Origin: Siphonodentalium dalli
Lineage: Eukaryota > Mollusca > Scaphopoda > Gadilida > Siphonodentaliidae
DNA length: 64,000 nt
Direction of reading: 5' to 3'
Assembly: GCA_032622095.1 (NCBI GenBank)
Contig: CP136062.1
Location: forward strand, 159,646,875 to 159,710,874
Notes under the pieces: generated by a model
The model's database searches: none
What the model saw: only the letters and a program-made list of their open reading frames with translations
What the model was told of the DNA's origin: nothing
Position numbers and translations under genes: made by a program
Part shown: piece after piece, positions 13,909 through 64,000 of the stretch
How the letters are laid out: each line of letters starts with the position of its first letter
Numbering within the stretch: the stretch's first letter is position 1

Positions 13909-14952
13909 TCACATCTCAATCCATTGTGGTGGGTAATAGTCAATTTTGTTAAACAGGGTCGCTAGTTTCGTCCGCGGCGTGGGGTAATTACCGTAATATA
14001 CCACATCTCCGCCAGTTAAATAACCAATCCACCAACCGAATGATCCAACAGTCATGACCGTGTGGTTGCACATTGTTAGAATTGCCATATCCACTTGTGG
14101 TGAATTTCCTTTTTGTACATGAACAACCCCTGTCCCATTCACGTGCTCTTTCGCCCACTTTAGGTCGTCCGAGGCAACGACGAAAATTACGTCACCATAC
14201 TTCTTTCTCATGAGCGCCGTTGCCTTGGTGACATAGTCCTCACCGGGTGACGTGTATCCATATTTCACGTATACTTTATTATCTACCATATCACCTCGTC
14301 GAACGTGAACGCCAACGAACGTTAAATTCCTCTGAGCATGCGCAGACTCTCCTGATACGTTACTGCGCACGCCAGACTTTGTGAGTTCTGAAAACTGTGA
14401 AGCGGCATTCTTTTTAATTTCGCCATTGAAGCGGAATTCTGACTTTATTTGTTCCTTCACAACTTCCAAATATTTCCACGATTGAAAGAAACCATTGAGG
14501 AAAACGTTTTGCGTCGATCCAAGAGCAGTAACTCTATTGTCGTAAAACATAGGCAGTCGTTCTCCAAATCGTTTACAATTCTTCTTGGAACAGAAGTTTC
14601 CCGTAAAAACGTTCGCAGATATGTTGAAATACTTTTTCAGTACCAGTCCGTTAGTCACGACTGGGTTGAGGTTATTGAGTTTAGCTATAGCCACGAGCGA
14701 AGCATATTTGAACATAATGTTGGCAAAGCGTCCCTCGATGTTGATGGATATATCATGGTTGGGCCTCGGGCGGCTCGTCACGACCACAGACTTGTTCGTC
14801 ATATCATGGTCGGGCCTTGTGTCGTTCGTCACGACCACAGACTTGTTCGTCATATCATGGTCGGTTCTCGTGCGGCCCGTCACGGCCACAGACTTTTTCG
14901 TCACTTTAACGGGAGGATCTGTGTTGTGGTTTTCTCCCACTGTTGAATAGCC
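13909..14952 (-). CDS. GT11 alpha-1,2-fucosyltransferase-like gene, exon 3 (stem end and catalytic domain)
   Basis: Family GT11 enzymes transfer L-fucose from GDP-fucose to terminal galactose in alpha-1,2 linkage in the Golgi lumen. The predicted protein is 430 residues; this exon codes for 84-430. The stem holds three 17-residue repeats (103-153). The catalytic domain starts at EGRFANIMFKYASLVAIAKL (about 156-175), equivalent to the GGRFGNQM region of FUT1/2. It then shows GVHVRRGDMV (297-306, the HxRRGD nucleotide-sugar motif) and MCNHTVMTVGSFGWW followed by IGYLTGGD (377-399), the most diagnostic GT11 block. Several N-glycosylation sequons (NVS, NLT, NGT, NHT) are present, and it ends YYPPQWIEM-stop. 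Acceptor choice: 'attaaag' before GGC at 14952 keeps phase 0 with the exon 2 donor. An alternative acceptor, caacag at 14940, would need phase 1 and the weaker donor GTAGGC. No frameshift or stop interrupts it, so the gene looks functional. Acceptor specificity (H antigen-type or other) cannot be read from sequence. Confidence 0.88.
   Translation of the reverse strand, partial: GYSTVGENHNTDPPVKVTKKSVAVTGRTRTDHDMTNKSVVVTNDTRPDHDMTNKSVVVTSRPRPNHDISINIEGRFANIMFKYASLVAIAKLNNLNPVVTNGLVLKKYFNISANVFTGNFCSKKNCKRFGERLPMFYDNRVTALGSTQNVFLNGFFQSWKYLEVVKEQIKSEFRFNGEIKKNAASQFSELTKSGVRSNVSGESAHAQRNLTFVGVHVRRGDMVDNKVYVKYGYTSPGEDYVTKATALMRKKYGDVIFVVASDDLKWAKEHVNGTGVVHVQKGNSPQVDMAILTMCNHTVMTVGSFGWWIGYLTGGDVVYYGNYPTPRTKLATLFNKIDYYPPQWIEM
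14743..14895 (-). repeat. In-frame 51-bp tandem repeat in the fucosyltransferase stem
   Basis: Three units of 17 codons encode KSVAVTGRTRTDHDMTN, KSVVVTNDTRPDHDMTN and a third ending NHDIS. The repeat length is a multiple of three, so copy number can change without breaking the frame. The repeat sits between the signal anchor and the first catalytic motif, where length is usually free to vary. Typical vertebrate FUT1/FUT2 stems lack it. Confidence 0.85.
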
Positions 14953-14999
14953 CTTTAATAAAATAGATGTAGATTATGTCAACAACACATTGGCATTAA

Positions 15000-15642: not shown

Positions 15643-15984
15643 TACATTGGCCCATAACTCCCAAGAAAGGTGTCCGAATATTATGAAAGATCATTTTTAC
15701 GAAACTTATTATACTTTTTTTATTTAGTTTCTAGTATATAAAATAAGCAGGTGAATGATGACGTCATATAATTTTTTTTTTAGGACGACGGATAATTCCT
15801 TGGAGGTTAACCATTCGATACTAAATGGATTCTCCCAGTCAGTTAAAAAGTCGGAATGGCCTATTATTGATTTGCAATGATGTACAGGTAATATAAGCAG
15901 ACGTCAGATAACTAAAAGTACAGAATGCGTCCTGTTTATTGAGGGAAATGTTTCAATAATAAGTTCAACAAACGACCTATTTGT

Positions 15985-18870
15985 TGAACGTATTATCTGA
16001 ACATTTCATGGGATAACTACTCATTAATGATGCTTTCGTTTAGAACGAGATAAACTTATTATCTGAACATTTCCTATGGGGTAACTACTATCAATGATGC
16101 TTTAGTGTAGAAAGGATTAAACTTATTATCTGAACATTTCCTATGGGATAACTACTCATCAATGATGCTTTAGTATAGAAAGTGTTAAACTTATTATCTG
16201 AACATTTTCTATTGGATAACTACTATCAATGATGCTTTAGTGTAGAAAGGATTAAACGTATTATCTGAACATTTCCTATGGGATAACTACTCATCAATGA
16301 TGCTTTAGTATAGAAAGGGTTAAACTTATAATCTGAACATTTCATGGGATAACTACTATCAATGATGCTTTAGTATAGAAAGGGTTAAACTTATTATCTG
16401 AACATTTCATGGGATAACTACTATCAATGATGCGTTAGTATAGAAAGTGTTAAACTTATTATCTGAACATTTCCTATGGGATAACTACTCATCAATGATG
16501 CTTTAGAATAGAGAGGGTTAAACTTTTTATCTGAACATTTCCTATGGGATAACTACTCATCAATGATGCTTTAGTATAGAGAGGGTAAACTTATTATCTG
16601 AACATTTCCTATGGGATAACTACTCATCAATGATGCTTTTGTATAGAAAGGGGTAAACTTATTATCTGAACATTTCCTAAGGGATAACTACTCATCAATG
16701 ATGCTTTAGTATAGAAAGGATTAAACTTATTATCTGAACATTTCCTATGGGATAACTACTCAGCAATGATGCTTTAGTATAGAAAGGGTTAAACTTATTA
16801 TCTGAACATTTCCTAAGGGATAACTACTCATCAATGATGATTTAGTATAGAAAGGATTAAACTTATTATCTGAACATTTCCTATGGGATAACTACTCAGT
16901 AATGGTGCTTTAGTATAGAAAGGGCTAAACTTATTATCTAAACATTCCGTATGGGATAACTACTCATCAATGATGCTTTAATATAGAAAGGTTAAACTTA
17001 TCTGAACATTTCCTATGGGATAACTACTCATCAATGATGATTTAGTATAGAAAGGGTTAAACTTATTATCTGAACATTTCCTATGGGATAACTACTCATC
17101 AATGATGTTTTAGTATAGAAAGGGTTAAACTTATTATCTGAACAGTTTATATGGGATAAATACTCATCAATGATGCTTTAGTATAGAAAGGGTTAAACTT
17201 ATTATCTGAACATTTCATATGGGATAACTACTCATCAATGATGCTTTAGTATAAAAAGGGTTAAACTTGTCATCTGAACATTTCCTATGGGAAAACTACT
17301 CATCAATGAGTGTTTAGTATGGAAAGGGTTAAACTTATCTGAACAGTTCCTATTGGATAACTACCCATCAATGATGCTTTAGTATAGAAAGGGTTAAACT
17401 TATCTGAACAGTTCATATTGGATAACTACTCATCAATGATGCTTCAGTATAGAAAGGGTTAAACTTATTATCTGACCAGTTCCTATTGGATAATAACTCA
17501 TCAACGATGCTTTAGTGTGGAAAGGGTTAAACTTATTATCTGAACAGTTCCTATTGGATAACTACTAATCAATGATGCTTTAGTATAGAAAGGGTTAAAC
17601 TTATCTGAACAGTTTATATTGGATAACTACTCATCAATGATGCTTTAATGTAGAAAGGGTTAAACTTATTATCTGAACATTTCATAAGGGGTAACTACTC
17701 AGCAATGGTGCTTTAGTATAGAAAGGGTTAAACTTATTATCTAGACATTCCATATGGGATAACTACTCATCAATGATGCTTTATTATAGAAAGGGTTAAA
17801 CATATCTGAACATTTCCTGTGGGATAACTACTCATCAATGATGATTTAGTATAGACAGGTTTAAACTTATTATCTGAACAGTTCCGATGGGATAAATATT
17901 CATCAATGATGTTTTAGTATAGAAAGGGTTAAACTTATTATCTGAACAGTTCCTATGGGATAACTACTCATCAATAAAGCTTTAGTGTAGAAAGGGTTAA
18001 ACTTATTATCTGAACAGTTCCTATTGGATAACTACCCATCAATGATGCTTTAGTATAGAAAGGGTTAAACTTATCTGAACAGTTCCTATTGGATAACTAC
18101 TCATCAATGATGCTTTAGTATAGAAAGGGTTAAACTTATTATCTGAACATTTCCTATGGGATAACTACTCATCAATAAAGCTTTAGTGTAGAAAGGGTTA
18201 AACTTATTATCTGAACAGTTCCTATTGGATAATAAATCATCAACGATGCTTTAGTGTGGAAAGGGTTAAACTTATTATCTGAACAGTTCATATTGGATAA
18301 CTACTAATCAATTATGCTTTAGTATAGAAAGGGTTAAACTTATCTGAACAGTTTCTATTGGATAACTACTCATCAATGATGCTTTAGTATAGAAAGGATT
18401 AAACTTATTATCTAGACATTCCATATGGGATAACTACTCATCAATGATGCTTTAATATAGAAAGGGTTAAACATATCTGAACATTTCCTGTGGGATAACT
18501 ACTCATCAATGATGATTTAGTATAGACAGGTTTAAACTTATTATCTGAACAGTTCCGATGGGATAAATATTCATCAATGATGTTTTAGTATAGAAAGGGT
18601 TAAACTTATTATCTGAACAGTTCATATGGGATAACTACTCATCAATAAAGCTTTAGTGTAGAAAGGGTTAAACTTATTATCTAAACAGTTCCTATGGGAT
18701 AACTACTCATCAATGATGCTTTAGTATAGAAAGTGTTAAACTTATTATCTGAACAGTTCCTATTGGATAACTACTCATCAATGATGCTTTGGTGTAGAAA
18801 GGGTTAAACTTATCTGAACAGTTCCTATTGGATAACTACTCATCAATGATGCTTTATTGTAGAAAGGGGT
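15985..18870 (+). repeat. ~67-bp minisatellite filling the fucosyltransferase second intron
   Basis: About 43 copies of a unit of about 61-68 bp: 'cttattatctgaacatttcc', 'tatgggataactactcatca', 'atgatgctttagtatagaaa', 'gggttaaa'. Length variants lack 'ttat' or part of the last block. A higher-order repeat is visible: the marker 'ctagacattccatatgg' at 17741 recurs at 18412, a shift of 671 bp (about ten units), followed by the same run of variant units. The array stops about 12 bp from the exon 2 splice donor. Confidence 0.95.
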
Positions 18871-18882
18871 AAGCCTACAAAC

Positions 18883-30600: not shown

Positions 30601-31119
30601 TTTCCCCACCTAATATACTGTGGGCTGTGTGGAAATTTTCACCCCTGGTAAAGTGGTCCTGGTAATGTGCTATGAATTGATGTTAGGGCAAACTGATGCT
30701 GTTAACAAAGAGTACCGTTATATATTTTTTTAATTTGTCTTTTTCGCGGTGTTCCGATAATCTGAACATATCCAGGAAAACTGATTATACTGGTTCTATT
30801 AGTTGTTTAAAATCGACTATAATTAAGATGGTTATTCAAACACCAGCGCAGGCATTATTATATTTTTCACAATAATTGTTCTTCGTTGTTTCATACACAC
30901 ACTGGTTTTTTCTCAAATCGCTTGGATTAACCAAACACCACGAAAATGTCAACTTTTGAAAAAATAACGGTACTTTTCCGTAACGGCATCAGTTTGACCT
31001 ACCCGCATCATAGCAATTCAGCGGGACCACCAACGTATAACAGAGTAGCAGGACCAGGGGTGAAACTATGATTTGTCAAATTATCCCACGTTTCCCATAT
31101 AAGTATACTGTAACGTTCG
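30601..31119. other. No recognisable feature
   Basis: AT-rich spacer between a segmental repeat and the array that follows. No coding or repeat signal seen. Confidence 0.4.
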
Positions 31120-33850
<2,731 letters not shown>

Positions 33851-45705: not shown

Positions 45706-46081
45706 TAGGACTTTTCGGCAGATATGATATCATGATTAGTACTATTGAGAGTATTTATTGGTAATAAACTAATTTGAATGACTAAATCGGATTTTGGTTA
45801 AATTCCTTTGTTGTTGTTGTTGTTCTAACTGGATGATACGGGGACCATGGAATCGGTGTATACATCTTTAACAGTGGCGTTACGACTTCATGCGTTAATT
45901 GTCGTGACGAAATTCCCAACGTTCACTTCCTTCATATCCATTTAAATAAAGTAGCATTTGAAAAAAAAACAATAACAAAATACCAGAGTAAATTAAGTGG
46001 AAACAATTATTTGTATATAGATGCATCTGACGGAAAACTTTGCCAGATTAACGATTATTTTATGAGACATGCATGCACTAT
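45706..46081. other. Spacer with MITE remnant
   Basis: 45780-45870 resembles a decayed end of the ~400-bp MITE ('aaatcggattttggtta', 'gatgatacggggaccatgga', 'atacatctttaac'). Confidence 0.4.
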
Positions 46082-47023
46082 AGTCAGGTTCGAAAATCTA
46101 AAAAAGCCTCTAGAAACGAAGGTGCGGGCATTTTTCTTTCAGAAGCTTTTGAGAATTGTTTCTAAAGGTATTTTTTATGCTGATTTCAAAAACCAATGTT
46201 GGCAAGTTGACCAAATTATTATATCTGGTCAAAAATGGCAATTCAAAATGGCCGCCATCAAAACAAAGTCTAACTGTACGTTTGTTGTTATATGTTGCTC
46301 TAAGACGTTTTAATATTGAGTATTTCTGTACTTTCGAACTAATTGGAACAAGAAGAAGTATACACAGAACATATGTGGTAATTTAAAGTGAACATTTCTG
46401 ACATTTAACCCCATTTATGCTCATAAAATTACAAAAAACGCGAATTTTATAAATTATTACGGTCTTAAAAAGGCAGAAAGTGAAATATGCTGGGAACGTA
46501 TTCTCCAAATTGTATAGACAGTTGTGTCTAAATGTAATTTGTAGCCTGATTCCAGAAAACAATGTTGGCAACTCGACAAATAATTATTTCTGACCTAAAA
46601 TGACAATTCAAAATGGCCGCCATCAGCACAAAGTCTAGATTTTCGTGTTTACTGTTATATGTTGTTCTAAGACGTTTGAATATTATGCATTTCCGTAATT
46701 TCGAACGAATTGTGACAAGAGACACTATACACAGAACATATGTGGTAATCTAAAGTGAACATATTTGACATTTAACCCACTTTATACCAAAAAATGACAA
46801 AAAACCCCGCAAATTTGATAAATTATTGCGGTCTTAAATGGCAGAAAGTGAAATATATCCTTCAAATGGTAATTATTTCTGACATAAAATGACAATTCAA
46901 AATGGCCGATATAATAATCAGTTAAAAATTCAAAAATTATCAGTGATATTATGAAACTGGTTCATCAGTACCCAATGCGACACAATTTGCCACCATATAA
47001 CCAAAAATGGTCACAAAAAAGCC

Positions 47024-47817
47024 TTATTTATTATTGCAGTCAGTTCCATAGTTGCAGAGTGGTGTGCAGTGTGACTCTGATTTTCTGCATGTACACCTGG
47101 CTGTTACACACCCCATATTGCATCCGCATTTGATTACTTCGAGACATGATTATGAAATGGGTTCTAGTGATACCATGGTTGGATCTAATCGACCATTTTC
47201 TTCTTTCCAACCCATTATCGAAGGATCCGGTAATGTTTGTACAGGAATGGTTGCTTGTTTCCAAACTAAAACCTAGTAGTTTGTTCTCAAGTTTCAGTCA
47301 GAGGGAACACCATGAATCTCGCATTGTTGAGTTTTGCATCGGAAACTCCATACAACTTGCATACAAAATGTTCAGCACTTTCAATTGTTTCAGTGGATAT
47401 TGCCATATTACCATTACCCTTTAAGAGTTCGCAACATTCCATGTAAATCTTCCATAATGATCGTTTAGACACCCCATATATGAACGAAGTTGAATCACAC
47501 CCCGTTAAAGCATGAAACGCAAGAATATAGTTCAGAGCGTCGCTCGGTATCTGGGTGGCAACATCCCTGATGGATAAAATTTTAGGGCTTTTGGAAGTTC
47601 CAGCCATCATGAACATATCACAATCTGCAGGGAATTTGTTTAGGTAACCAAGCAATAACACTAGAACATCGACGTCCCCACTTACCACAATGACTTGTTT
47701 CAGATTGCAACCCATGCTGGCATCAAGTGAATGAAGGATAAATCTAGTGTCAGCCTCTTCGTGATTAGACTCTAACCTTTTCAACTCTGTTCTATCTACC
47801 GAACAATCTACCTGCAC
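47024..47817 (-). pseudogene. Left-arm copy of PIN/CXC transposon ORF (3' part)
   Basis: Open from 47817 to 47287 on the minus strand: ESNHEEADTRFILHSLDASM, VIVVSGDVDVLVLLLGYLNK, FMMAGTSKSPKILSIRDVAT, ILAFHALTGCDSTSFIYGVS, then the SAEHFVCKLYGVSDAKLNNA region. After 47287 the reading changes frame and continues to a stop at 47024, with the cysteine-rich end degraded. The spacing of EEADT and a hydrophobic strand ending GDVDVL resembles the second acidic pair of PIN/FEN-type nucleases (EAExxC...EDxDxL in FEN1). Related ORFs are widespread as 'uncharacterised' proteins in invertebrate genomes. Here it lacks the N-terminal part that the right-arm copy retains, a deletion of about 375 bp, but keeps the intact EEADT motif that the right copy has lost. 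Confidence 0.65.
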
Positions 47818-47962
47818 GGGGGGGATGGTGTCATTGTTGTTAGGCAGGATACTTTCTCGATCAGAGCGTCACAAAGCATTGCTTTGTTTCAGTTCGAAGT
47901 GTTTTAATTGTCTCGCATAATGCTATTGGAACAGGCATGAGTTCATGTTGTAAAACAGATAT

Positions 47963-49256
47963 ATGGTATTACATCGTCTTGTAGTTGCCCTTCATGTCGG
48001 CAGGGCAGTCAACTTGCAAACACTGACACCATCTCCCCGTGCAGGTATTGCCATTAACGGTCAGGCCCTTGTTGTGGCCATAGGTAAACCGGAAAAGATA
48101 AATACATTTGGAGATTTGGTCGATGTATTCACAGTGTGCTTGTTGAATAAGGGCGAAAGCTATGTCTGGATTGATGTAGTGTTCTACAGATACTCGGATA
48201 AATATATCAAGACTGCCACCAGATCGGGAAGAAGTCGCAATGTACCATTGATCCGAAGGACAATAACAAATCATGATGTTCCCATCCCTCAAAATTGCAA
48301 AAGTTTCATTTTGTTGTCTGACAACAAGTCCAATTTGAATGGATTCTTGTCTCGAGAACTTGTTAGTAAAGCGAAAACAGAATGTGTTACCGTTGTTGTT
48401 GCAGGGGGTTCCCAAGAGATTGCAGAGTAGATTGTCCGGTAGGTGGAACAGACTTGAAAGGGTTAGAGTCTAATCACGAAGCGGCTGGACTTACCCTTCA
48501 TTCACTTGATAACAGCATGGGGTGCAATCTGAAACAAGTTATTGTGGTAAGTAGGGAGGTCGATGTTCTAGTGGTTGCTTGGTTACCTAGACAAAGTTCC
48601 TGCAGATTGTGATGTGTTCATGATGGCTGGAACGTCCAAAAGCCCTAAAATTATACCCATCAGGGATGTTGCCACCCAAATACCGAGCGACGCTCTGAAC
48701 TATATTCTTGCGTTTTATGCTTTAACAGGGTGTGATTCAACTTCGTTCATATATGGGGTGTCTAAACGATCATTATGGAATATTTACCTGGAAGGTTGTG
48801 AACTCTTAACGAGTATAGGTAATATTGCAATATCCACTGAAACAATTGAAAGTGCTGAACATTTTGTATGCAAGTTGTATAGTTTCCGATGCAAAACTCA
48901 ACAATGTAAGATTCAGGATGTTCCCTCGGACAGAATCTCCCGAAAAGCTTCCACCAACCAGCGACTCATTTCATTACCGGTACCACCTTTTGAGAACAAA
49001 CTACCACGTTTTAGTTTGGAAACAAGCAGCCATTCATATGCAAACATTCCCGGATCTTTCGACAATGGGATGGAAAGAAGAAAATGGTCGATTAGATCCA
49101 ACCATGATGTCACTAGAACCCATTCCAAAATCAAGTCTCGAAATAATCAAATGTGGGTGCAAGAAGGGGTGTGTAACAGCAAGGTGTACATGCAGAAAAT
49201 CAGAGTTACCCTGCACACCACTCTGCAATTGTGGAACTGACTGCAATAATAAATAA
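47963..49256 (+). pseudogene. Right-arm copy of PIN/CXC transposon ORF (most complete, three frame changes)
   Basis: Frame 1 (47963-48430) gives the N-terminal part: VWIDVVFYRYSDKYIKTATR, RRTITNHDVPIPQNC, FILLSDNKSNLNGFLSRELV, TVVVAGGSQE. The reading then moves to the frame of 48430-48600 (NHEAAGLTLHSLDNSMGCNL), to 48575-48900 (YLDKVPADCDVFMMAGTSKS, ILAFYALTGCDSTSFIYGVS) and to 48880-49256 (SPEKLPPTSDSFHYRYHLLR, FPDLSTMGWKEENGRLDP). It ends in a cysteine cluster CxCx3Cx4CxCx6Cx3CxCx3C (CGCKKGCVTARCTC...), like tesmin/TSO1 CXC zinc-binding repeats. A small deletion removes the acidic EEADTR motif. Three frame changes and that loss mean it is dead. Role of the intact family is inferred: DNA binding by CXC, and possibly DNA cleavage by the PIN-like fold. 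Confidence 0.7.
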
Positions 49257-49671
49257 AGATCTTTTTGGTGACAATTTTTGGCTACATAAAGCAAGTTTGT
49301 GTCGCATTGGGTGTTGATGAACCTGTATCATAATATTACTTATGATTTTCGAATTTTAACTGATTATTATATCGGCCATTTTGAGTTGTCATTTTATGTC
49401 AGAAATAATTATTGGTCGAGTTGCCAACATTGCTTTTTGGAATCAGATTACAAATTACATTTAGACACAACTGTATCAACCATTTGAAGAATATATTTCT
49501 GGAATACTTCACTTTCTGCCATTTAAGACGGCAATAATTTATAAAATTCGCATTTTTTTTGTCATTTTTGGGCATAAAGTGAGTTAAATGTGAAACATAT
49601 TCACTTTAAATTAGCGCATATGTTCTGTGTATAGTGTCACTTGTCACAATTCGTTCGAAAGTACGGAAATG

Positions 49672-51196
49672 TATGGAATCCTATTACGGCCACTTGCTAA
49701 TGGCGCTTTCGGCGCACTTTTTGTCGCTTTTGGCGCGATGCGCCGAAAGCGACAAAATGTGCGCCATTAGCGTTGTTTCGGCGCTTTCGGCGCACCGCGC
49801 CGAAAGCGACAAAATATGCGCCATTAGTGCAATCGGCGCGGTGCGCCATTAGTGCATTCGGCGCGGTGCGCCATTAGCGCGGTGCGCCGAAAGCGACAAA
49901 ATATGCGCCATTAGCGCATATACAATTAAGTATGTGATCACCCCAGCAGGGGTGCCGGAAGAGGGGGCAGATGGGGCAGCTGACCCCCTGCCCTTGACCA
50001 AGGGGGCGAGCGGGGGCAGGACTTGCCCTTTTTCTGGAAAAGAAAATGATTTTTGTGTGTTTAATCTCATGTTTTTACAGTAAAATGGGACTTTTTTTGT
50101 CCAAATACCACCGATTTCACAAGGAATATAATTTTTTTGTCACAAAACGGCCATAAAAACCGACAAATACCTTTAAAATAGGGATTTTTGCCTCAATGAA
50201 TTTATGGTTATTTTTCCGAGTTTGCGGAGAAAATGCCCTTTTTTTGTGCAGAAAAGTGCCCTTTTTGTAGGCTCTGCCCCCCTGCCCTTGGATGCTTCCG
50301 GCGCCCCTGCACAGATCGGGCATGGCCATATGTACAATGTATAGGCCTATGTATCAATTTTAAAAGGGAGGGGCTGAATTTTGCTGTAGATAGACATCCA
50401 AATGCTATAATTTGTCATTATTCAGATTTAAAATTATTGTGGGCGTGTGGTCCTGGTCCCTCCTTTGTGGGTAGTTAAAGGTACTCAATCCGATCAGACG
50501 GTCCCAGGGATGTGGCTAGAGGGTCTCCGTTGGGGGTGTCCACCTTGGGAAATTCCAACTGCACCTCCTTGAATCAGAATCAGACAAAACACAAATTTTA
50601 CATTATTCCATTTGCACCCCCCCCCCCCCCATTGCACCTTAGTGCTCATGCCTAATATCCTAACATCTAGTGGTCTAAATCCAGACAAATGCACACGGCT
50701 ATGGACAAGAGACCAGGACACACCGGGCTGACCATTGTTGTTCAACGCAGTGTGATAATTTTTTTTGAAAACTGTACAAGAAAATCACAAATCCTAGCAT
50801 CTAGACTGGCCTCAACTGAACTCTGCCCCCTCTTCCGGCACCCCTGCTGGGGTGATCATATACTTAATTGTACATGCGCTAATGGCGCATATTTTGTCGC
50901 TTTCGGCCTACCGCGCTAATGGCGCACCGCGCCGATTGCACTAATGGCGCATATTTTGTCGCCGAAAGCGCCGAAAGCGCCGAAAGCGACAAAAAGTGCG
51001 CCGTAATGGCGCATGTTTTGTCGCTTTCGGCGCTTTCGGCGCTTTCGGCGGTTTCGGCGCGCGCCGAAACAACGCTAACGGCGCACTTTTTGTCGCTTTC
51101 GGCGCGTTACTAATGGCGCACTTTTTGTCGCTTTCGGCGCTTTCGGCGCGATGCGCCGAAAGCGCCATTAGCAAGTGGCCGTAATAGGATTCCATA
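49672..51196. mobile_element. Nested GC-rich foldback element, 1525 bp
   Basis: Perfect terminal inverted repeats start TATGGAATCCTATTACGGCC and continue for over 40 bp. A perfect 6-bp duplication GAAATG lies at 49666-49671 and 51197-51202; deleting the element restores the host arm sequence seen at about 51541-51600. The ends are arrays of GCGCCGAAAGCGACAAAA and 'gcgccattag' words, far more GC-rich than the surroundings. Inside is a second inverted pair ('gatcaccccagcaggggtgc' 'cggaagagggggcag', at about 49935-49990 and 50825-50870) enclosing fragments of the hAT-like repeat and the ~400-bp MITE. Confidence 0.9.
50476..50850 (+). mobile_element. hAT-like repeat fragment inside the nested foldback
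   Basis: A scrap of the ~400-bp MITE end ('taaaggtactcaatccgat', 50476-50495) is followed at 50505 by CAGGGATGTGGCTAGAGGGT, the left end of the hAT-like family, and continues to about 50820 ('tagactggcctcaactgaa'). The right end is missing. Confidence 0.65.
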
Positions 51197-51799
51197 GAAA
51201 TGCATAATATTCAAACGTCTTAGAACAATATATAACAGTAAACGAAAATCTAGACTTTATTCTGATAGCGGCCATTTTGAATTGTCACTTTAGGTCAGAA
51301 ATAATTATTTGTCGAGTTGCCAACATTGTTTTCTAGAATCAGAATACAAATTACATTTAGACACAACTGTCTAAACAATTTGAAGGATATATGTCCGGCA
51401 TACTCCACTTTCTGCCATTTAAGACGCAACAATTTATAAAATTCGCGTTTTTTTTTCATTTTTGGGCATAAATTGGGTTAAATGTCAAACGTTTTCTCTT
51501 TAAATTACCACATATGTTCGGTGCTTAGTGTCTCTTGTCACAATTCGTTCGAAGTTATGGAAATGCATAATATTCAAACGTCTTAGAACAACATATAATA
51601 GTAAACGAAAATCTAGACTTTGTTCTGATGGCGGCCATTTTGAATTGTCATTTTGGCTCAGAAATAATAATTTGTCGACTTGCCAACATTGGTTTTTGAA
51701 ATCAGCATAAAAATTACCTTTAGAAACAATTCTCAAAAGCTTCTGAAAGAAAAATGCCCGCACCTTTAACTTTTATTCCATTTCGAACCTGACTACTAT

Positions 51800-58479: not shown

Positions 58480-59227
58480 TTTCATGCAGTATATATATAT
58501 TATAATAATAAAACACGAAGTTGTTGGCAGATGGAATGGTCTAGCCTGTCCGTGTGATACGAGTCTCAGCTGTCTGGACATCGATGCAATCATGTCTGGT
58601 GTTTTGGGCGCCCATGTAGCTTGAGACGTCCTGATGTGCGTCGTGACGCCATGGCGTCTTGATCGGTTTCCAGAAAGAAATCATTCAATATTGTTCATTT
58701 ATGAACGATTTATTACCAAAATAAAACCAGATAACAATGCAAATTAAGTATATATGTGGATTTAAATTACAATTGATGCAACCAGTTCATATTAGCTCGT
58801 GTGCATTCTTTACAGTATATACTTCCGGTATGACGTAACATGTCCGCGGAAGGACAGATAAACAGATAAACAGAGATCCGGACCGAAAACATTACTTGCG
58901 TCCAGTATAGACTGGCGCAAGTAAATATACATTGAGTCCAATCACAAGTTAAAAAACATTTAAGATTTTTTTTTTAAACAGCGTTTATCTTTTCAACTCA
59001 TTGGGAGTCAATTTCCCAAAAATATCTAAATACTACTTTTGGCATAAACTAAAATCTTCTGGCTACGTTCCAATTTTTTCTTCTTCAAATTTCAATTAAA
59101 TCGCTCGATGATCCTGCTTGCGGTACAAAATTCATTTCATGAGAACGAGGAACAATTTTTCTGTGATAATAAGTTGACAACGGAAAGACTTTATAGTTCG
59201 TCAACCAGTCCTCCATTCTGACTTGTT
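58480..59227. other. No recognisable feature
   Basis: Contains a short 'agataaacagataaacagag' repeat near 58856. No coding evidence. Confidence 0.4.
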
Positions 59228-60450
59228 ACTGTCATTCCGGAGGACGAGGTGTGATTTTAGTGTCATTCCGGAGGACGAGGTGTGATTTTAGTGTCATTCC
59301 GGAGGACGAGGTGTGATTTTAGTGTCATTCCGGGGGGCTATGTGTGATTTTAGTGTCATTCCGGAGGACGAGGTGTGATTTTAGTGTCATTCCGGGGGCT
59401 AGGTGTGATTTTAGTGTCATTCCGGGGGGCTAGGTGTGATTTTAGTGTCATTCCGGGGGGCTATGTGTGATTTTAGTGTCATTCCGGAGGGCTAGGTGTG
59501 ATTTTCACTTGTTACTGTCATTCCGGAGGGCTAGGTGTGATTTTCACTTGTTACTGTCATTCCGGAGGGCTAGGTGTGATTTTCACGTGTTACTGTCATT
59601 CCGGAGGGCTAGGTGTGATTTTAGTGTCATTCCGGGGGGCTATGTGTGATTTTAGTGTCATTCCGGAGGGCTAGGTGTGATTTTCACGTGTTACTGTCAT
59701 TCCGGGGGGCTAGGTGTGATTTTAGTGTCATTCCGGGGGGCTATGTGTGATTTTAGTGTCATTCCGGAGGGCTAGGTGTGATTTTCACTTGTTACTGTCA
59801 TTCCGGAGGGCTAGGTGTGATTTTCACGTGTTACTGTCATTCCGGGGGGCTAGGTGTGATTTTAGTGTCATTCCGGGGGGCTATGTGTGATTTTAGTGTC
59901 ATTCCGGAGGGCTAGGTGTGATTTTCACTTGTTACTGTCATTCCGGAGGGCTAGGTGTGATTTTCACTTGTTACTGTCATTCCGCAGGGCTAGGTGTGAT
60001 TTTCACTTGTTACTGTCATTGCGGATGGCTAGGTGTGATTTTCACTTGTTACTGTCATTCCGGAGGGCTAGGTGTGATTTTCACTTGTTACTGTCATTCC
60101 GGAGGGCTAGGTGTGATTTTCACGTGTTACTGTCATTCCGGGGGACTAGGTGTGATTTTCACTTGTTACTGTCATTCCGGAGGGCTAGGTGTGATTTTAC
60201 TGTCATTCCGGAGGGCTAGGTGTGATTTTACTGTCATTCCGGAGGGCTAGGTGTGATCTTACTGTCATTCCAGAGGGCTAGGTGTGATTTTACTGTCATT
60301 CCAGAGGGCTAGGTGTGATTTTACTGTCATTCCAGAGAGCTAGGTGTGATTTTACTGTCATTCCGGAGGACGAGGTGTGATTTTAGTGTCATTCCGGAGG
60401 GCTAGGTGTGATTTTCACTTGTTACTGTCATTCCAGAGTGGGGCTAGTTG
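59228..60450 (+). repeat. Minisatellite with two unit lengths (31 and 39 bp)
   Basis: Short unit: 'tgtcattccggaggacgagg' 'tgtgattttag'. Long unit adds 'cacttgttac' after 'tgtgatttt'. About 34 copies. Short units dominate both ends, long ones the middle, and a block of alternating units around 59500-59930 is itself repeated. The 110-codon frames reading SFRRARCDFHLLL are array products, not proteins. Confidence 0.95.
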
Positions 60451-61254
60451 TGATTTTCACTGACCCTGTCATATGTGTCACCTGGTCAGACACCCACTTA
60501 CCTATAATGGTTAACCTATAAAATACCTGGTCAGCACACTTACCTATAAAACAAAATGTATATTCCAGCCCAACTCCATGCACATGTCATATCTCTCTCG
60601 TTCCCGATATCAGGTATTTATATATAAAACAACCTGGAACATATCAATAATGCACAATCATGTATTGTATGTACCCACTAAAGAGTATTGAATATCCACC
60701 AGAGAGTATAATTCCGCCCAGACTCACAGTGCTATTCGGATGTCTCGCCTTTCAAATCGGTCCGATCGACCCGGGGTACTTGTGCCCAGCAAATAGCGAG
60801 TATTGATTCGATCACTTGAGTACAACAGAGTTACCTTTTCGCTGACAAAAGGAATTATTTATAATAGGTCATGTGACGAAGAGAGATAACAGGGATAGAA
60901 AAATTGTTGTTTTGCAACTGTGAGGGGACCACCATTGCATTTTTAGATGCAGAAATATGTTCTCTTCCATATTCCCCAATGTTCCTGGACAGAAAGTTGC
61001 ACATTATTTTCTGAAAAGTGGCTTTTGTGTGACTATGCGCGGTTGTTTTCCATGAATTTTTAGCAAAGCTGCCCACCAGAAATGTGGTTTTGACCAACCA
61101 AATTCAAGTTCCATCCAAGTCAGTTTCATCTGAACTTTGTGTTTTTAGACATAATTCAATGTGTTCTTTTAGATGTGCTAATAACTTATTAGTCCCCATT
61201 CTGTTGCAACCAACTTGCACAATTTGGCTGTTTGTCCCAGGGCCTATAACATGG
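60451..61254. other. Spacer between two minisatellites
   Basis: A short imperfect duplication 'acctggtcagacaccc...cttacctataa' lies at 60480-60560. No gene recognised; the minus frame 60855-61097 has no motif. Confidence 0.4.
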
Positions 61255-64000
61255 CTTTGTGATTACACTGTGAATTCAATCCTGTGCGTGTGGGGTAATA
61301 GCCATACATGGATACACTGTGAATTCAATCCTGTGCGTGTGGGGTAATAGCCATACATGGATACACTGTGAATTCAATCCTGTACGTGTGGGGTAATAGC
61401 CACACATGGATACACTGTTAATTCAATCCTGTATGTGTGGCGTAATAGCCACACATGGATACACTGTGAATTCAATCCTGTACGTGTGGGGTAATAGCCA
61501 CACATGGATACACTGTGAATTCAATCCTGTACGTGTGGGGTAATAGCCACACATGGATACACTGTGAATTCAATCCTGTACGTGTGGGGTAATAGCCACA
61601 CATGGATACACTGTGAATTCAATCCTGAACGTGTGGGGTAATAGCCACACATGGATACACTGTGAATTCAATCCTGTATGTGTGGCGTAATAGCCATACA
61701 CTGTGAATTCAATCCTGTACGTGTGGGGTAATAGCCACACATGGATACACTGTGAATTCAATCCTGTATGTGTGGCGTAATAGCCATACACTGTGAATTC
61801 AATCCTGTACGTGTGGGGTAATAGCCACACATGGATACACTGTGAATTCAATCATGTACGTGTGGGGTAATAGCCACACATGGATACACTGTGAATTCAA
61901 TCCTGTATGTGTGGCGTAATAGATATACACTGTGAATTCAATCCTGTACGTGTGGGGTAATAGCCACACATGGATACACTGTGAATTCAATCCTGTACGT
62001 GTTGGGTAATAGCCATACATGGATACACTGTGAATTCAATCCTGTACGTGTGGGGTAATAGCCACACATGGATACACTGTGAATTCAATCCTGTACGTGT
62101 GGGGTAATAGCCACACATGGATACACTGTGAATTCAATCCTGTACGTGTGGGGTAATAGCCACACATGGATACACTGTGAATTCAATCCTGTACGTGTGG
62201 GGTAATAGCCACACATGGATACACTGTGAATTCAATCCTGTGCGTGTGGGGTAATAGCCATACATGGATACACTGTGAATTCAATCCTGTACGTGTGGGG
62301 TAATAGCCACACATGGATACACTGTGAATTAAATCCTGTACGTGTGGGATAATAGCCACACATGGATACACTGTGAATTCAATCCTGTACGTGTGGCGTA
62401 ATAGCCATACACTGTGAATTCAATCCTGTACGTGTGGGGTAATAGCCACACATGGATACACTGTGAATTCAATCCTGTATGTGTGGCGTAATAGCCATAC
62501 ACTGTGAATTCAATCCTGTACGTGTGGGGTAATAGCCATACATGGATACACTGTGAATTCAATCCTGTACGTGTGGCGTAATAGCCATACACTGTGAATT
62601 CAATCCTGTACGTGTGGAGTAATAGCCACACATGGATACACTGTGAATTCAATCCTGTATGTGTGGCGTAATAGCCATACACTGTGAATTCAATCCTGTA
62701 CGTGTGGGGTAATAGCCATACATGGATACACTGTGAATTCAATCCTGTACGTGTGGGGTAATAGCCACACATGGATACACTGTGAATTCAATCCTGTATG
62801 TGTGGCGTAATAGCCATACACTGTGAATTCAATCCTGTACGTGTGGGGTAATAGCCACACATGGATACACTGTGGATTCAATCATGTACGTGTGGGGTAA
62901 TAGCCACACATGGATACACTGTGAATTCAATCCTGTATGTGTGGCGTAATAGCCATACACTGTGAATTCAATCCTGTACGTGTGGGGTAATAGCCACACA
63001 TGGATACACTGTGAATTCAATCCTGTGCGTGTGGGGTAATAGCCACACATGGATACACTGTGAATTCAATCCTGTACGTGTGGGGTAATAGCCATACACT
63101 GTGAATTCAATCCTGTACGTGTGGGGTAATAGCCACGCATGGATACACTGTGAATTCAATCCTGTGCGTGTGGGGTAATAGCCACACATGGATACACTGT
63201 GAATTCAATCATGTACGTGTGGGGTAATAGCCACACATGGATACACTGTGAATTCAATCCTGTACGTGTGGGGGTAATAGCCATACACTGTGAATTCAAT
63301 CCTGTACGTGTGGGGTAATAGCCACACATGGATACACTGTGAATTCAATCCTGTATGTGTGGCGTAATAGCCATACACTGTGAATTCAATCCTGTACGTG
63401 TGGGGTAATAGCCATACATGGATACACTGTGAATTCAATCCTGTACGTGTGGCGTAATAGCCATACACTGTGAATTCAATCCTGTACGTGTGGAGTAATA
63501 GCCACACATGGATACACTGTGAATTCAATCCTGTATGTGTGGCGTAATAGCCATACACTGTGAATTCAATCCTGTACGTGTGGGGTAATAGCCATACATG
63601 GATACACTGTGAATTCAATCCTGTACGTGTGGGGTAATAGCCACACATGGATACACTGTGAATTCAATCCTGTATGTGTGGCGTAATAGCCATACACTGT
63701 GAATTCAATCCTGTACGTGTGGGGTAATAGCCACACATGGATACACTGTGAATTCAATCATGTACGTGTGGGGTAATAGCCACACATTGATACACTGTGA
63801 ATTCAATCCTGTATGTGTGGCGTAATAGCCATACACTGTGAATTCAATCCTGTACGTGTGGGGTAATAGCCACACATGGATACACTGTGAATTCAATCCT
63901 GTGCGTGTGGGGTAATAGCCACACATGGATACACTGTGAATTCAATCCTGTACGTGTGGGGTAATAGCCATACACTGTGAATTCAATCCTGTACGTGTGG
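61255..64000 (+). repeat. ~49/41-bp minisatellite with 876-bp higher-order repeat, runs off the window
   Basis: Long unit 'atacactgtgaattcaatcc' 'tgtacgtgtggggtaatagc' 'cacacatgg' (49 bp); short unit lacks 'acacatgg' and often has 'tatgtgtggcg'. About 58 copies. The order of unit types from about 62395 to 63124 recurs exactly 876 bp later to the window end, with only a few base differences. Minus-strand frames with NSQCIHVWLLPHTYRIEFTV are array products. Confidence 0.95.

Follow-up and report, generated by a model that had tools for sequence, protein, structure and literature searches.

A 64-kb window of the genome of the scaphopod Siphonodentalium dalli (64,000 nucleotides of contig CP136062.1) contains a mobile element with long inverted arms, each of which carries a copy of an open reading frame (ORF) for a nuclease-like protein with a CXC-like tail. 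The element is one copy of a large family, very probably a non-autonomous foldback family that is derived from an AcademX-like DNA transposon and has decaying pieces of the nuclease gene in its arms. Intact relatives of the ORF lie in larger, ordinary-looking transposons elsewhere in this genome, and for this reason the foldback, although a real structure, is best seen as a probable hitch-hiker and not as a new kind of element. An invertebrate protein family known only as 'uncharacterised' is thereby located to the C-terminal FEN/XPG nuclease and CXC region within a large transposon ORF, and with intact ORFs and defined ends present in one genome, a role for a 5'-nuclease in DNA transposition becomes testable.

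Structure and distribution of the foldback family

The genome searched comprises 2.23 Gb in nine contigs, of which the window is a part. The element spans positions 46081–51795, with the terminal inverted repeat (TIR) TAGTCAGGTTCGAA and CTA flanking it on either side. A sequence-only reading of the window had set the limits at 46082 and 51794 with a 5-bp ACTAT duplication; inverted termini are indeed found at this place, but each boundary moves out by one base because the terminal T and A are part of the TIR, AGTCAGG...CCTGACT being preceded by T and followed by A throughout the collected copies. Flanks were obtained for 30 copies (20 as 35-base stretches, six joined elements, three oversized elements and L038). 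With the end taken as TAGTC..., 26 of them show a perfect 3-bp target site duplication (TSD), compared with a mean of 0.97 for shuffled partners; 25 were scored by script and L077 by hand, with TTA on both sides and a TIR mismatch in the left end, and the duplication is lacking in L059, L067, E9 and E10. ACTAT, in which CTA is joined by one flanking base on each side (A and T), fits only 6 of the 30.

Both end types recur across the genome with no match to the reversed-pattern controls (Table 1), so that their abundance is not due to chance, and the plain 14-mer of the end occurs at 318 sites versus 7 for its control. Among 100 listed ends of each type there are 51 pairs no more than 20 kb apart, some ends being counted in more than one pair; 41 consist of a left and a right end facing each other, and 21 of these 41 intervals are 3.8–4.5 kb long. 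A genome search with the left ORF (best 150 of 2,565 candidates scored) placed neighbouring matches less than 5 kb apart in the -/+ order in 26 of 27 cases and in the ++ order in one. A single mobile element with inverted ends is supported, and its arrangement recurs across the family. A pattern search of viral contigs gave 37 matches, no relative among them.

The arms are ~1.7 kb long and include the ORF, in place of the ~0.95 kb of inverted subterminal sequence described earlier. They are 80–97% identical in ungapped segments and about 85–88% in the main gapped alignments, and the outer part of the left arm contains two ~366-bp subterminal direct repeats. The element measures 4,184 bp when the nested insert in the right arm is left out together with one of its two duplication copies. 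With its long inverted arms, short terminal repeats and TSD it has the structure of a foldback element. Galileo, of the P superfamily (PMC4168063), and, reportedly, Tetris (PMC4079207) likewise have long inverted arms at both ends; the window family differs from both in its ends and in the inverted nuclease-ORF copies borne by its arms.

The two outward-facing copies of a single ORF family are present, one per arm, and the EEADT...GDVDVL acidic set and the CXC-like cysteine cluster noted from the sequence are confirmed, the latter matching the Pfam TCR profile PF03638 only at E=0.14 (13 bits, cut-off 23.5). The right-arm ORF is broken in the window copy. Its N-terminal part has no full counterpart in the left arm, which makes the central spacer asymmetric, and among 11 copies (the window copy and E1–E10) this part is confined to the side of the right-type end in nine, the window copy included.

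Table 1. Features of the foldback element in the window (TIR, terminal inverted repeat; TSD, target site duplication; aa, amino acids)
Feature	Position	Strand	Remarks
TSD, left copy, CTA	46078..46080	.	
Left-type end, TAGTCAGGTTCGAAAATCTAAAAAAGC	46081..46107	+	167 genome matches (≤2 mismatches), control 0
Left arm	46081..47811	+	piecewise complementary to right arm
Left CXC-bearing C-terminal part	47027..47290	-	frame differs from 47287–47868
Left nuclease ORF, 193 aa open	47287..47868	-	all five tested acidic positions retained; without N-terminal part
Asymmetric central spacer between arms	47812..48426	.	
Right ORF, N-terminal part, 158 aa	47954..48430	+	
Right nuclease region, frameshifted	48427..48938	+	EEAD motif degraded to EAAG
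Right arm, split by nested element	48427..51795	-	
Right KLPPT...CXC C-terminal part	48927..49253	+	ORF 36% identical to L105 residues 1460–1564
Nested unrelated abundant element, TIR TATGGAATCC...	49672..51196	.	TSD GAAATG at 49666–49671 and 51197–51202
Right-type end, TAGTCAGGTTCGAAATGRAATAAAAGTGAAAGG	51763..51795	-	one mismatch in window copy; 170 genome matches (≤1 mismatch), control 0
TSD, right copy, CTA	51796..51798	.	

Some minor observations concern individual copies. The nested element has the TIR TATGGAATCCTATTACGGCCACTTGC, internal GCGCCGAAAGCGACAAAA palindromes and a 6-bp TSD; elsewhere its duplications read ACTAGC, AGTAGG, ATATAC and CAGATC (L002, L003, L004 and L007, respectively) and are not clear in L005, L006 and L008. 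In the left flank of L041/E2 (C2:202567300-202567470) a 29-bp tandem repeat, the unit of which includes TAGTCAGGTTCCATC, directly adjoins a right-type end, which looks as though a small satellite had grown from that end. L036 and L037 (C3:130.64 Mb and 131.50 Mb) are seemingly one element copy in opposite orientation with complementary flanks, 0.85 Mb apart, which suggests an inverted segmental duplication.

Large relatives and probable relation to AcademX

A 168-aa query for the uncharacterised invertebrate family gave 151 matches (best 150 of 1,928 candidates scored), several of which sit in frames of ~1,500 aa. L105 and L106 are 99.6% identical across 5.85 kb and contain a 1,575-aa ORF each, and other complete ORFs have 1,585 (L109), 1,510 (L110), 1,532 (L111) and 1,494 aa (L112 with L101). 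The left ORF of the window matches residues 1258–1450 of the 1,575-aa ORF (25%, E=7e-12), the CXC-bearing ORF matches residues 1460–1564 (36%, E=2e-16), and profile against profile the window family matches the large ORF with a probability of 99.4; on these matches, the foldback ORF is the counterpart of a larger protein's C-terminal third. Searches of Pfam, NCBIfam and PDB sequences, libraries without an Academ reference, returned no convincing match for the 1,575-aa ORF, nor did these databases return one for the nuclease.

The nuclease region of L105 is predicted by modelling to adopt the FEN/XPG 5'-nuclease fold. In this part, five relatives have eight aspartates in common without exception, and seven of them would fit the acidic metal-site set of FEN1; at five of those seven positions, scored in the foldback copies, all residues are acidic in 28 of 44. 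The proposed PIN/FEN type of the ORF and its CXC-like tail are supported, for the window ORF itself by homology to the relatives. These resemble FEN1, XPG and Exo1 in predicted fold and possibly in the invariant acidic set, and are unlike them in that the nuclease sits within a large transposon ORF and is followed by a CXC-like cluster.

Ends could be defined in three of the large elements; no TIR was made out in L111, and L106 has no right end. L105 (5.9 kb) ends in TAGTCTGGCTGTCG and TAGTCTGGCTGTTG with the duplication TTA, L110 (6.1 kb) in TAGTGTGGTCGTGG and TAGTGTGGTCGTCA with TAT, and L101 (5.7 kb) in TAGTATAGTCGTTG and TAGTGTGGTCGTCG with TGG. The right end of L105 was found from sequence first; the end pairs of L110 and L101 were selected among listed inverted pairs because their 3-base flanks agreed, a choice biased towards 3-bp duplications, and in both elements the pair is immediately external to a run of additional inverted matches. 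All three have short, ordinary TIRs that begin with TAGT, as does the foldback family. With intact relatives in single ORFs of ~1,500 aa, three of them between ordinary TIRs, and a near-neutral ORF in the arms (see below), the view that the foldback is the home of the ORF or is driven by it is not supported.

AcademX is a lineage of the Academ superfamily (Kojima 2020, Mob DNA 11:15). Its nuclease is presumably of XPG type. According to PMC10045372, AcademX has 3- or 4-bp duplications and is distinguished from AcademH by the encoded enzymes, helicase and nuclease; PMC10294476 gives a mean length of 5,565 bp for bivalve Academ elements. Duplications of 3 bp are found in the foldback copies (26/30) and in the three large relatives, which are 5.7–6.1 kb long, and an XPG-type nuclease is indicated by the predicted fold of L105 and the homology of the window ORF; therefore the large elements are called AcademX-like here and the window family is taken as a non-autonomous foldback derivative, unlike AcademX in its foldback form, its lack of a transposase part and its unconstrained ORF. 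The 'poorly described mobile-element class' of the sequence-only reading is accordingly most likely AcademX. Among the papers listed by literature searches, none names a foldback Academ in its title or the opening of its abstract, which does not establish its absence from print. It is unlikely that the FEN/CXC gene was instead captured by an unrelated, non-AcademX foldback, the match to the large elements in TSD length and TAGT being coincidental. Capture would suit the modest protein identity to the intact relatives (25–36%) and the agreement of the ends over only four bases with the three resolved relatives (five with L105); against it, the domain order of nuclease, KLPPT segment and CXC is the same in the foldback ORF and the C-terminal third of the large protein, and TSD length and first bases match in all three resolved relatives.

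In addition, 22 matches to the E-motif region (e.g. C1:74570211, C2:23476487 and C9:73555601) span exactly query residues 1–136, 11 of them in 182-aa frames; these probably represent a second non-autonomous family with only an E-motif fragment of the large ORF.

Descent and decay of the arm copies

ORF copies with at least 300 aligned bases numbered 46, of which E5 and L037 were dropped, leaving 44; 33 were labelled left or right by the neighbouring end. In the unrooted tree a single split (support 87) has all 18 right copies on one side and 14 of the 15 left copies on the other, and subgroups recur on both sides, including the window clade (the window copy, L010, L011, L012 and E1). Because of the split and these recurring subgroups, the inverted duplication most likely preceded the spread, and the foldback family seems to have formed once and then to have spread while its cargo decayed. 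Independent formation of each foldback, through an inverted duplication at the site it occupies, is highly improbable. The misfit L032, whose arms differ by just 3.0% and are closer to each other than to other elements, speaks for separate origins, as does E10, which leans the same way at 5.0%; the 32 of 33 labelled copies on their own side, the subgroups on both sides and the consistent difference between the two end types speak against them.

The foldback ORF evolves at about the neutral rate, with no constraint detected. For variants in more than one labelled copy, the ratio of nonsynonymous (N) to synonymous (S) changes relative to neutral expectation is 1.25 for left copies (40 N, 11 S) and 1.09 for right copies (46 N, 15 S); a ratio of nonsynonymous to synonymous rates (omega, dN/dS) of 1 is not rejected (p 0.63 and 0.88), whereas 0.5 (p 0.006 and 0.009) and 0.3 (p about 4e-6) are. 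Singletons in labelled copies give 1.13 (left) and 0.89 (right), low-frequency variants pooled over the 44 copies give 1.37, and differences fixed in the window clade (21 N, 8 S) give 0.92, with an omega of 0.3 rejected (p 0.005). Singleton stops are as numerous as expected over all 44 copies (12 observed, 11.8 expected; left 10 and 5.3, right 4 and 6.0). Thirteen of the 44 copies retain an open frame, 28 all five tested acidic positions, and ten both. On the simplest reading, the ORF is a passenger. Between groups of the large relatives, dN/dS is below 0.13–0.36, assuming dS = 2, a value that was set because dS is saturated.

These counts bear on the decidedly unlikely alternative, put forward in the sequence-only reading, that the FEN-like nuclease encoded in the arms itself moves the family, acting either in cis or from the small number of copies that are intact. 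The nuclease is the sole recognised coding content between the ends, and ten copies keep both the open frame and all five tested acidic positions. However, substitutions and stops are near-neutral, also among variants common to several copies, and in the right arm of the window clade the EEAD glutamate E19 is replaced by alanine in all four covering copies, with the adjacent D21 codon disrupted (D-to-G by single bases), yet the clade spread. No 5'-nuclease of the FEN fold is known to join strands.

Proposed mobilisation of the family and remaining features of the window

Under the proposed derivation from an AcademX-like transposon, each of the two arms of a single founder received the 3' part of the transposon gene (FEN/XPG-fold nuclease plus CXC), with its tail facing outward and an asymmetric centre between the arms, and this unit was then copied to many sites. 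The inverted duplication may stem from foldback synthesis while a gap was being repaired, or from a pair of neighbouring copies lying head to head. The foldback would be moved in trans by a transposase encoded elsewhere that recognises its ends; in autonomous relatives the nuclease could act together with a DDE-type domain in its own protein, its likely task being to trim flaps or branched ends in excision or repair. Three oversized elements (8.2–9.9 kb) were examined for an autonomous version, and none was found: B_C8 (L050, C8:116748700-116757150) is split by a piggyBac-like insertion that encodes two DDE_Tnp_1_7 ORFs and is bordered by TTAA, the inserted ORF of B_C5 resembles a reverse transcriptase as judged by eye, and E1 carries an insertion.

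Several observations weigh against the derivation as set out here. None of the 150 matches to the L105 E-motif region (best 150 of 1,773) falls in the 41 intervals bounded by TAGTCAGGTTCGAA ends, and no element combining these ends with a transposase was found; the source of the transposase may have been lost or missed in sampling, or a relative whose own ends are similar may serve them. The large relatives share just TAGT-type ends and the 25–36% protein identity with the foldback family, and several of their invariant positions (D/E and Cys/His, for instance D480, D653 and E959) are no more than candidates for the DDE/Cys8 residues. The 44 copies were picked by protein similarity, which favours intact ones; the ratio pooled over them is 0.73 for singletons and 0.67 for variants of middle frequency (14 N, 7 S), and for the fixed differences of the window clade an omega of 0.5 is not rejected (p 0.19). 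Within groups of the large relatives the counts are sparse and show no clear constraint either (single variants 0.54, 0.67, 1.9 and 1.47; shared variants 0 N/1 S, 9/3, 7/5 and 0/0), so that only the between-group comparison contrasts these relatives with the foldback ORF. The N-terminal part lies on both sides in E10 and on the side of the left-type end in E5, two exceptions among the 11 copies, and structure prediction on 17 foldback-family copies reached a predicted local distance difference test (pLDDT) score of 42.6 and was not used.

The head-to-head nuclease copies might also act as an accidental silencer when read through, by way of a ~1.7 kb hairpin RNA directed against the nuclease gene of the autonomous parent, by analogy with Mu killer, which silences MuDR in maize. 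We consider this very unlikely; it would fit in that no same-ended element with a transposase was found, and if true, the foldback, having spread at a cost to its parent, would also have contributed to the silencing of that parent.

Elsewhere in the window, positions 13909–14973 (minus strand) encode a 354-aa GT11 fucosyltransferase-like ORF (PF01531, E=1e-40) that contains, close to its start, a 51-bp tandem repeat in frame, and long satellite-like tandem arrays occupy 15983–18872, 31119–33849, 59226–60461 and 61264–64000.

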